Assembly (NCBI RefSeq): GCF_009831625.1
Contig: NZ_WUUS01000001.1
Span: 434,301 to 498,300, forward strand
DNA: 64,000 nt
DNA from: Halobaculum saliterrae
GTDB taxonomy: Archaea > Halobacteriota > Halobacteria > Halobacteriales > Haloferacaceae
Direction: 5' to 3'
Below the pieces are notes generated by a model, which worked only from the letters and a program-made list of their open reading frames with translations, did not search any database and was not told the origin of the DNA. This document shows positions 25,075-63,184 of the stretch, one piece after another. The stretch's first letter is position 1. Every line of letters starts with the position of its first letter. The translations under genes were made by a program, and so were the position numbers.

Positions 25075-25818
25075 TTACTCGCTCTGGATGCGCGGCGCGA
25101 GCATGTACGTGACCTGCCCCATCCCCTCGCCGAACTCGTAGTGCAGCTTCACCGGGAACTCCTCGCCGAGCTCGACGCGGACCTCCGCGTCCTTCGGGAT
25201 GGCCTTGTTCATGTCCTTGAGGTAGTCGAGGCTGAACAGCGAGTCGGCCGGACCGGCCTGCAGGTCGATGAGGTCCTCGCGGTCGAGCCGGAGGTCGACG
25301 TCGTCGGTGTCGCCCTCGGCCTCGATGAAGAACGCCTCCTCCGCCTCGTCGACGCGCAGGCGGATGTGGTCGGACACCATGTCGGCGGCCGTGATCCCGC
25401 GGGCGATCTGGGCGCCCTCGACGACGATCTCCGCCGGGAGGTCCAGATCCGGGATGTCCGGCTCCTGTCGGATGGAGTCGGGATCGATGAGCGCGAGCGT
25501 GTAGCTCAGCCCCTCGATGTGGATGTGGAGCTTGCGGGTCTCCTCGTCGAGTTCCAACTGAATGAGGTCGCCGGAGTCGGCCATCCCGGCGATGTCCTCG
25601 AGCCTGTTGAGGTTGACCCCGATGACCCCTCCGTCGGCCTCGTAGGACTCGAACGCGGCGGCCTCGAGCGTGAGGTCGACCATGCCGACGTTGGCCGGGT
25701 CGACGGCGCGGATCGCGAGTTCGTCCTCGTTGAGCCGGATCTTGCACTCGTCGACCAGCACGCTCACCGAGTCGAGCGCGTCGCGGAGGGTAGACGCGCT
25801 CACGATGGCCTTGAACAT
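25075..25818 (-). CDS. pcn: DNA polymerase sliding clamp (main PCNA)
   Basis: A 247-residue archaeal PCNA, the homotrimeric clamp tethering polymerases, ligase and FEN1 to DNA. It starts [19 protein letters not shown] and shows the two-domain clamp pattern: [33 protein letters not shown], the interdomain loop [34 protein letters not shown] and the C-terminal [12 protein letters not shown]. Length equals other haloarchaeal clamps. A TATTTTTA box about 29 nt upstream implies a nearly leaderless mRNA. A second, divergent clamp lies at 59852; this one has the canonical sequence and is almost certainly the housekeeping copy. Confidence 0.97.
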
Positions 25819-59218: not shown

Positions 59219-59782
59219 ATGCAGCACGTGAAGGTTCCGCAGGACCGCATCGGCGTGCTCATCGGCGAGGGCGGCGAGACGATGCGGGAGATCGAGGACC
59301 GCGCCGAGGTCCGACTCGACATCGACTCCGAGTCGGGCTCGGTCGCCATCGACAGCGTCGGCGACCCGGTCGCCGGACTGGTCGCTCCCGACATCGTCCG
59401 CGCGATCGGACGCGGGTTCACCCCCGAGGTCGCCCTCTCGCTGTTGGAGCACGACCTGCGACGGTTCGAGTTGGTCGATCTCGCATCGGAGACGCGAAAC
59501 AAGAACGACCTCCAGCGCCAGAAGGGCCGCCTCATCGGCGAGAACGGCCGTACGCGGGAGCTGATGGAGGACCTCTCGGGCGCCGAAGTCGTCATCAAGG
59601 GGACGACCCTCGGCGTCATCGGCCAGCCCGAGGAGGTCGAGGCCGTCCGCCGCGCGACGGGAATGATCCTCGACGGCGCCCCCCACGGGGCCGTCTACTC
59701 GTTCCTGGAGCGCAAGCACAACGAGATCCACGGCGCGCCGGACCTCTCGACGCCGACGGGGAACGCCGAGGAGCCGCGGTAG
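59219..59782 (+). CDS. KH-domain RNA-binding protein (Dim2/Pno1-like)
   Basis: A 187-residue protein with two KH domains. KH1 (residues 2-60) has IGVLIGEGGETMREIE (GxxG as GEGG), KH2 (about 95-150) has KGRLIGENGRTRELMEDLSG (GENG). This two-KH layout is that of Dim2/Pno1, a small-subunit assembly factor that works with Rio and Nob1. The start is the ATG at 59219. Its 3' end is convergent with the second PCNA gene, 69 nt apart. Confidence 0.92.
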   Translation: MQHVKVPQDRIGVLIGEGGETMREIEDRAEVRLDIDSESGSVAIDSVGDPVAGLVAPDIVRAIGRGFTPEVALSLLEHDLRRFELVDLASETRNKNDLQRQKGRLIGENGRTRELMEDLSGAEVVIKGTTLGVIGQPEEVEAVRRATGMILDGAPHGAVYSFLERKHNEIHGAPDLSTPTGNAEEPR

Positions 59783-59851: not shown

Positions 59852-60670
59852 TCACACCGCCTGTAGCCGCGGCGCCACGAACGCCTCCACGCGTCCGCCG
59901 CCGTCCGCGACCTCGTACTCGACGCCCAGCGGCGCCTCCCGCCCGAGGGTAACGCGCACGTCCGCTCCCGACGGGACCGCACGCTCGATGCACTCCAAGT
60001 ACGACAGCGAGAACAGCGACTCGGCCTCGCCTCCCTCGAACGCGGCCGCCTCCTCCGCGGGCACGACGAACCGCACGTCGTCGGTGTCGCCGTCGGCCGA
60101 CGCCACGAACGCTCCTTCGCCGGGATCGACTCCGAGCGTGAGGTGGTCGGCGACCATCCCCGCGGCCGCCACGAACCGCCCCACGGTCTCGCCGGGGAGC
60201 GTTAACGCCGCGGTGTGTTCGAAGCCCAGTTCATCGATGTCGGGGGGACCGCGGACGCTCTCGGGATCGAACAACCCCATCGCGTACTCCAGTTCCCCGG
60301 CGACGACGTGGAGTCGGCGTCCGTCCGGGTCGAACGCGAGCGTCACCGGGTCGTCGTCGTCGGCCATCCCGAGGACCTCCCGGAGCCGGGTCACGTCGAC
60401 GCCGACGGTCGTGCCGTCTGCCTCGTAGGCCGTCGTCGCCGACGCCGACAACTCCACCTCCACGGCCGCCACCGTCGCGGGGTCCATCGCGGCCGCCCGG
60501 ATCCCGTCGGGGCCGAACGTCACTCGACACTCGTCGACGAGCGAACCGACTGCCGAGAGGAGCGGGCGGAGGGTGTCGGCTCGGACGCGAACTCGAACGG
60601 GAGCGCCGACGGAGGACCCGGACGGGTCGGCGCTCGGGGAGAACTCTGTCGTGGGGTCGTCGTCCGCCAT
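59852..60670 (-). CDS. Second, divergent PCNA (sliding clamp paralogue)
   Basis: A 272-residue full-length clamp homologue. After a disordered 25-residue arm (TTEFSPSADPSGSSVG) it follows the main PCNA throughout: LVDECRVTFGPDGIRAAAMDP, VTRLREVLGMADDDDPVTLAF, the interdomain loop FDPESVRGPPDIDELGF, GDTDDVRFVVP, ESLFSLSYLECIERAVP, and C-terminal VEAFVAPRLQAV. Differences include many substitutions on the inner face and the missing N-terminal MFKAI strand start, replaced by APVRVRVRADT. It could form a heterotrimer with the other clamp, a damage-specific ring, or a clamp inhibitor. It is divergent from the gene at 60782. Confidence 0.88.
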   Translation of the reverse strand: MADDDPTTEFSPSADPSGSSVGAPVRVRVRADTLRPLLSAVGSLVDECRVTFGPDGIRAAAMDPATVAAVEVELSASATTAYEADGTTVGVDVTRLREVLGMADDDDPVTLAFDPDGRRLHVVAGELEYAMGLFDPESVRGPPDIDELGFEHTAALTLPGETVGRFVAAAGMVADHLTLGVDPGEGAFVASADGDTDDVRFVVPAEEAAAFEGGEAESLFSLSYLECIERAVPSGADVRVTLGREAPLGVEYEVADGGGRVEAFVAPRLQAV

Positions 60671-60692
60671 GGCGGATCACGGACCTGTTTCC

Positions 60693-60700
60693 CAATAAGT
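60693..60700 (-). promoter_or_regulatory. TATA-like box of second PCNA
   Basis: ACTTATTG on the minus strand, centred about 26 nt before the ATG at 60670; consistent with a leaderless transcript. Confidence 0.5.
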
Positions 60701-60781
60701 ATTTTTCCGCCATATCCGGTAGATACCCGGATACCGAGTATGAATCTATATGTCTTCAGAATCCATACTTCGATTTGGAGT

Positions 60782-61351
60782 ATGCCTGACGATCGAGATC
60801 GCGGGATCCTGACTCCCGCGGATCGGCGGTACCTGCGCGGGGAGACGGAGTTCGCGAGCGTACAGTCCGAACGCAACGCGCGAGCGCGCATTCGTGACAG
60901 GATACACGCCGCGCTGTACGACTTCGAGGTGCTAGTCGGGGGGATGAGCGAACGGGACCGGGAGTTGGTGTTCGCGGATCGCCTCGACCGCGAGGGGACC
61001 GCCGCGTTCGACGCGCTCGTGTCGGCGCTGGCGTTCCTGTACCGGGGCGTCGAGGACACCGAGCTCGACTTCGAGACGGTGTTGTCGGAGGGGGTGAACC
61101 TCGCGGAGGCGAGCGAGGAACGGGCGGCGACGGTCGATCTCGACGTGACGTTCCACGCGCTGAGCGTCGCGGAGGTGCGGCGGAAGATGCGCGCGGGCGA
61201 GCCGCTGTCGCTGACGGAGCTAGCGTTCGCGGACACGCGGACGGAGGTATCCGCCGACGAGTTCGCCGAGTACCTCCGCGGTACCGAGGGGACCGTCGAC
61301 GACGCCGGCGTCGACGATGGGCGGATCCAGTCGCGAGTGACCGACTTCTAG
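60782..61351 (+). CDS. Conserved haloarchaeal protein divergent from second PCNA
   Basis: A 189-residue soluble protein beginning MPDDRDRGILTPADRRYLRG. The N-terminal 50 residues, with RRYLRGETEFASVQSERNARARIRDR taken in parts, form a motif I have seen at the front of haloarchaeal helical proteins: a helix rich in Arg, possibly nucleic-acid-facing. The rest is helical (LVFADRLDREGTAAFDALVS). It ends RIQSRVTDF. No catalytic motif. An ATG at 60740 in frame would add 14 residues. The 111-nt space to the PCNA start contains AT-rich words (TATGAATCTATATG) probably serving both promoters. Confidence 0.68.
   Translation: MPDDRDRGILTPADRRYLRGETEFASVQSERNARARIRDRIHAALYDFEVLVGGMSERDRELVFADRLDREGTAAFDALVSALAFLYRGVEDTELDFETVLSEGVNLAEASEERAATVDLDVTFHALSVAEVRRKMRAGEPLSLTELAFADTRTEVSADEFAEYLRGTEGTVDDAGVDDGRIQSRVTDF

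Positions 61352-61501: not shown

Positions 61502-63184
<1,683 letters not shown>

Follow-up and report, generated by a model that had tools for sequence, protein, structure and literature searches.

Sliding clamps are usually shared hubs. Second clamps are already on record in haloarchaea, where Lynch et al. (2012) described four cases of duplicate PCNAs, one of which was traced to phage PhiCh1 (PMC3404096). Of the 170 family genomes surveyed here, roughly 60 gave at least two clamp hits, although fragments are among them. The mere presence of a second clamp is therefore no novelty. The earlier note started from one PCNA as the usual euryarchaeal state, but multiple PCNAs are not unusual in haloarchaea; its report of a second clamp at this locus stands. 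Elsewhere in the archaea, Sulfolobus PCNA2 carries a double proline that shifts a loop, and it accepts a PIP motif different from that of PCNA1 (PMC3504372); we confirmed the double proline in its sequence. In phage T4, gp33 and gp55 act via the gp45 clamp, with a transcription factor bearing its clamp-binding motif on a linker (PMC7892883). NreA, NucS and TIP are archaeal accessory PCNA binders with known or possible PIP-type motifs, which are C-terminal in NucS and NreA (PMC4929162).

The locus described here lies in a window of 64,000 nucleotides of Halobaculum saliterrae DNA. It comprises a second PCNA gene and a divergently transcribed partner gene, and we read it, with moderate confidence, as a two-gene module in which an autoregulated, regulator-like protein has a dedicated clamp of its own, to which it would dock by its tail. 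The features are as follows, with gene starts as assigned in this analysis.

25075–25818, minus strand: canonical PcnA (247 aa), outside the module; the genome's other clamp
59219–59782, plus strand: KH-domain gene, bounding the module site on the left; in genomes without the module, the thermosome gene comes directly after it
59852–60670, minus strand: module PCNA of 272 aa, the second clamp; an intact open reading frame with PCNA homology
60242–60247, minus strand: double proline (residues P142-P143) of the interdomain connecting loop, Glu-Pro in canonical clamps
60602–60670, minus strand: acidic, low-complexity N-terminal arm of the clamp (residues 1–23), not in canonical PCNA
60671–60781, no strand: divergent intergenic region common to both genes, 111 bp
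60697–60706, minus strand: predicted TATA-like element AAAAATACTT upstream of the second clamp
60723–60741, no strand: putative operator copy 1, inverted repeat ATACCCGGATACCGAGTAT
60746–60752, plus strand: predicted TATA-like element of the partner, CTATATG
60765–60783, no strand: putative operator copy 2, ATACTTCGATTTGGAGTAT, at a spacing of 42 bp from copy 1; it overlaps the start codon of the partner gene
60782–61351, plus strand: partner gene, 189 aa (570 bp), divergent from the clamp, with a predicted all-helical domain at residues 1–170
61310–61348, plus strand: C-terminal PIP-like tail of the partner, VDDGRIQSRVTDF, residues 177–189, pLDDT below 50
61502–63184, plus strand: thermosome gene, bounding the module site on the right

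As in the duplicates of Lynch et al., a second PCNA accompanies the canonical one in a haloarchaeon and is patchily distributed; the PCNA section of that paper, in contrast, makes no mention of a partner gene, a tail, an operator or a changed loop (PMC3404096). The module clamp is like Haloferax volcanii PcnA (PDB 3hi8/3ifv) in its fold as judged by sequence, its overall length and its core residues, but differs in the loop of the PIP pocket, the C-terminal pocket residues, the N-terminal arm and its faster evolution. With Sulfolobus PCNA2 it has in common that both are paralogous archaeal clamps whose interdomain loop contains a double proline; the Sulfolobus protein, however, stems from a separate duplication and belongs to the PCNA1-2-3 heterotrimer, and the cited account mentions no dedicated divergent partner (PMC3504372). 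The parallel with T4 gp45 and gp33/gp55 is a works-like analogy alone. Finally, the partner departs from NreA, NucS and TIP in having no family-model match and in its link with a second clamp in place of canonical PcnA. We found no report of this clamp–partner module in the open-access PMC literature, which is weak evidence of novelty.

The second clamp has a two-domain PCNA sequence over its full length. It scored 33.8 bits against Pfam PCNA_N (cut-off 20.3), 21.1 bits against PCNA_C, slightly under the cut-off of 23, and 203.6 bits against NCBIfam PRK01115, slightly under the cut-off of 207; the two sub-cut-off scores are in line with a divergent clamp. Haloferax volcanii PCNA (3hi8) matched residues 29–271 (phmmer, E=1e-53), and identity to the canonical clamp of the same genome is 42% over 243 aa. 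A search of the whole genome (3.78 Mb, 21 contigs) returned exactly these two PCNA loci. The earlier note had proposed two sliding-clamp homologues, at 25075 and 59852, the second being full-length, divergent and equipped with a disordered arm, and all of this is confirmed; the arm corresponds to residues 1–23, and most module clamps have an N-terminal extension that is acidic, poorly conserved and usually 11–49 aa long. Decay of a recent duplicate, which the same note had raised as a possible counter-finding, is ruled out by open frames in relatives and a dN/dS below 1; one draft relative (G176) appears frame-shifted. Within Halobaculum, the canonical clamp is present in 11/11 genomes at 95–98% identity and the second clamp in five, with four orthologues 73–79% identical to the window copy; the clamp of a named relative, Halobaculum litoreum, is 75% identical to it. 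One module-bearing Halobaculum genome (G005) has a third clamp gene (L100, 2398343–2399101). Another Halobaculum chromosome (G002) carries three very divergent clamp genes, L024, L026 and L027, at 70865, 2786883 and 2808983, which match the window's clamp with equal score and 30% identity, and whose flanks are non-identical by position over 3.8 kb; these are possibly a repeated mobile element.

A search for co-occurring genes, the check suggested for this clamp, was run and yielded an obligate divergent partner gene beside it. The earlier note had overlooked this gene and likewise the putative operator lying between it and the clamp gene. Clamp and partner are both present, at one site, in 5 of the 11 Halobaculum genomes and both absent from the other 6. 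Where they are absent, the gap between the KH-domain and thermosome genes is 163–251 bp in five of the six genomes. In G003 (L276) another open frame, resembling NAD(P)H-hydrate epimerase by eye, lies between the same two genes. The thermosome gene also flanks the pair in a further genus (g23), the chromosomal site is the same in two genera, and every member of the window clamp's tree group has the same divergent gene immediately upstream, even where the other neighbours differ. The tailed partner subfamily was found in exactly 14 of 170 family genomes (E at most 4e-55), in all 14 beside a second clamp; the next-best homologues in the family start at E 5e-25, and most of these fall short of the tail. 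Among 392 genomes of the order it was found in 44 (E at most 1e-56), again with a gap separating the paralogues. Merging both searches gave 48 genomes from 10 families, with a divergently adjacent PCNA in 48/48; the genomes are a sample of related organisms, and their counts are not counts of independent events. These order-wide figures are measured from the partner side, because the clamp profile scores canonical clamps as high as module clamps and so cannot resolve co-occurrence from the clamp side. In one genome (G388, L222) the canonical pcnA lies directly downstream of the partner, adjoining the module.

The partner is a single-copy gene in its own genome, and its product matched no model in Pfam, NCBIfam, PADLOC or PHROG. 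An AlphaFold2 model from 67 sequences predicts a helical domain with a pLDDT of 88 (pTM 0.73) followed by a tail with a pLDDT below 50; an earlier model from 15 sequences was poor (pLDDT 52). Searches of PDB and BFVD with this fold returned no significant match (no VIA-align Z above 3.2), and despite the confident helical model we recognised no DNA-binding fold or family match.

What the sequences do conserve is the C-terminal tail, which looks like a clamp-docking peptide. A QxxhxxF tail occurs in 48/48 clamp-linked partners and 0/36 paralogues, and in 46 the aromatic residue is the C-terminus itself. In 47 partners the tail reads [DE]DGR[IV]Q[SA]x[VM]Tx[FY], and in the remaining one DDWVQAKMTSF; a linker of variable length precedes it. 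A PIP box is defined as QxxhxxF(x), with h as Leu, Ile or Met, and the PIP consensus of Haloferax volcanii is QxxLxxFx (PMC7776575). Set against these, the Gln and the aromatic residue are kept in 48/48, with Val or Met at the h position, which makes the tail PIP-like. We also considered whether the tail might be a general PIP of these cells and rejected this, as its DNA pattern, across 167 family genomes, matches the 14 partner loci and just one other genome (G114).

The face of the clamp that would receive such a peptide is altered as a class. Proline replaces the Glu at the position of H. volcanii E119 in 41/47 module clamps, in none of 41 canonical clamps and in none of 56 other second clamps, and 32 of the 47 have the double proline. 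Further PIP-facing changes relative to the 41 canonical clamps fall at M46, N43, F221 and M239 (H. volcanii numbering), and the C-terminal pocket residues also differ as a class. The pore is kept, with Arg at the positions of H. volcanii R140 and K205 in 38/43 module clamps each, as are core features, namely the invariant Tyr106 and the GDxD loop. We infer that the second clamp forms a closed ring around DNA, most probably a homotrimer, and that the partner tail docks in this clamp's altered pocket and not in that of canonical PcnA. Module clamps in G154, G356 and G181 have a canonical-like EEPD or KEPE loop beside partners that are still tailed, which shows that the proline is not essential and rules out the double proline as a strict requirement for the tail. 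Two of these three clamps (loci L067, L204 and L225) are also without the N-terminal arm, and it is possible that the clamp of these modules has been replaced.

The same three clamps stand apart phylogenetically: 44 of 47 module clamps form one clade with 99% support and G154, G356 and G181 fall outside it, although a single clade for all module clamps was not rejected by the AU test (p 0.16). A tree built from 85 clamps places the window copy among second clamps from other genera, in a group with 96% support that is separate from the clamps of phiH, PhiCh1, CGphi46, HSTV-1 and HATV-3. Five chromosomal second clamps in genus g18 (L059–L063), 58–62% identical to canonical PcnA, lie close to the module clade; they have no partner and their loop is canonical. 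On a plasmid of Halococcus dombrowskii (L158, 2836–4849), two clamp-like genes lie near each other in the same orientation.

The intergenic region would fit common control of the two genes. The start-to-start distance is 100–139 bp in 29/46 modules, and the region contains a 19-bp inverted repeat with the consensus ATAAyC-N7-GATTAT, for which the Halobaculum form is nearer ATACyC-N7-GAGTAT. Two copies lie either side of the partner's TATA-like box, the top two sites are 42–43 bp apart in 41/46 modules, and zero-mismatch matches in the genome of the window copy are limited to these two. Control by TrmB (TACT-N7-8-GAGTA box) was rejected: of the two copies in the window only copy 2 fits that box, and the consensus across families reads ATAAyC-N7-GATTAT. 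The partner has a conserved putative operator in its own divergent promoter, as a regulator would. The partner or a close paralogue presumably binds this 19-bp element and so governs both the partner gene and the clamp gene, though the element may instead serve a different regulator.

Paralogues of the partner without a tail display a similar arrangement. In 19 of 36 the 19-bp repeat sits at exactly −17, over the start codon as in the partner. All 18 tail-less loci inspected for neighbours (L281–L298) have an MMPL/RND transporter gene within the same 9-kb stretch, in most cases directly divergent from the paralogue; L281:1441-4811 is an example. A repeat over the start together with a divergent transporter is a layout typical of divergent, self-controlled regulators. 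The family may bind the 19-bp repeat, and the tail-less paralogues form an unnamed haloarchaeal family of probable local regulators.

Our preferred reading, a regulator-like protein with a clamp of its own, draws on sequence-based support of several kinds: adjacency in all cases, joint presence and absence, conservation of tail and operator, and an altered client-binding loop. In such a module the partner would sit on the operator and keep the pair at a low level. A clamp loaded on DNA would then capture the tail, tethering the partner to DNA away from the operator and providing feedback. Alternatively, the clamp might carry the partner to a site of action; whichever way it runs, this last step is the least certain part of the scheme.

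The most serious rival, in our view unlikely, is a specialised repair or replication clamp, acting as a homotrimer or as a heterotrimer with PcnA, with the partner as a client enzyme or adaptor and the operator serving stress induction by another regulator. Retention of the pore and core clamp residues fits this, and the double proline of Sulfolobus PCNA2 is a precedent for the choice of clients between clamps (PMC3504372), but the partner matches no enzymatic family, and its nearest tail-less paralogues, close to transporter genes and under the same operator, suit a regulator better than a DNA enzyme. A bolder form of our preferred reading, which we regard as doubtful, is an archaeal clamp dedicated to a transcription regulator, in which the partner would ride its own PCNA to promoters or chromatin and couple gene control to replication or repair.

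Clamp-binding proteins can also be inhibitors: p21 blocks PCNA, and TIP has been proposed to do likewise. An inhibitor–decoy pair, resembling a toxin and antitoxin, would have the tail block canonical PcnA and the second clamp soak the partner up. The patchy distribution, the joint gain or loss and the divergent layout with a common operator would all be expected of such a pair, and the module clamp does evolve faster, with a dN/dS within Halobaculum of 0.25–0.65 compared with 0.05–0.11 for canonical PcnA and 0.13–0.25 for the partner. However, the retained core and pore residues would be superfluous in a pure decoy, a single tail would need to fit both the canonical pocket and the unlike pocket loop of the module clamp, and PADLOC gave no match. 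We rank this below the repair or replication clamp, as improbable.

Regulation might also be the whole of the story, the partner acting, as its transporter-linked paralogues would, as a local repressor, here of the clamp gene, while the tail serves some role other than docking. The operator common to those tail-less paralogues and the imperfection of the tail as a PIP box are compatible with this, but the confinement of the tail to clamp-linked partners (48/48, against 0/36 paralogues), its fit to QxxhxxF and the class-wide change in the PIP-side loop of the clamp argue against it, and we give it still less credence than the decoy. Capture of a replication gene from a virus or plasmid, with no role of its own, is very improbable. 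Haloviruses and many plasmids do carry PCNAs and one member of the module clade resides on a Halomicrococcus plasmid, but the clamps of the module are separate in the tree from those of haloviruses and plasmids, the partner gene has no match in the phage collection or viral contigs, the chromosomal site is the same in two genera, and selection is purifying and pairing obligate; neither tree nor neighbourhood supports a viral or plasmid origin, and the virus-related ring that the earlier note had entertained is not borne out.

If the clamp is indeed inherited with one partner, shares an operator with it and has a client pocket specific to its class, the module would offer a simple natural system for how cells separate two clamps and their clients, and it could show whether a clamp serves gene regulation in archaea. 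Riding of the partner on the clamp, if true, would resemble T4 gp45 and gp33, but in a cellular organism. A further outcome of the analysis is the outline of a haloarchaeal protein family, as yet unnamed, whose members are linked to the operator and in part lie near transporter genes, and which lies outside the curated libraries used here.
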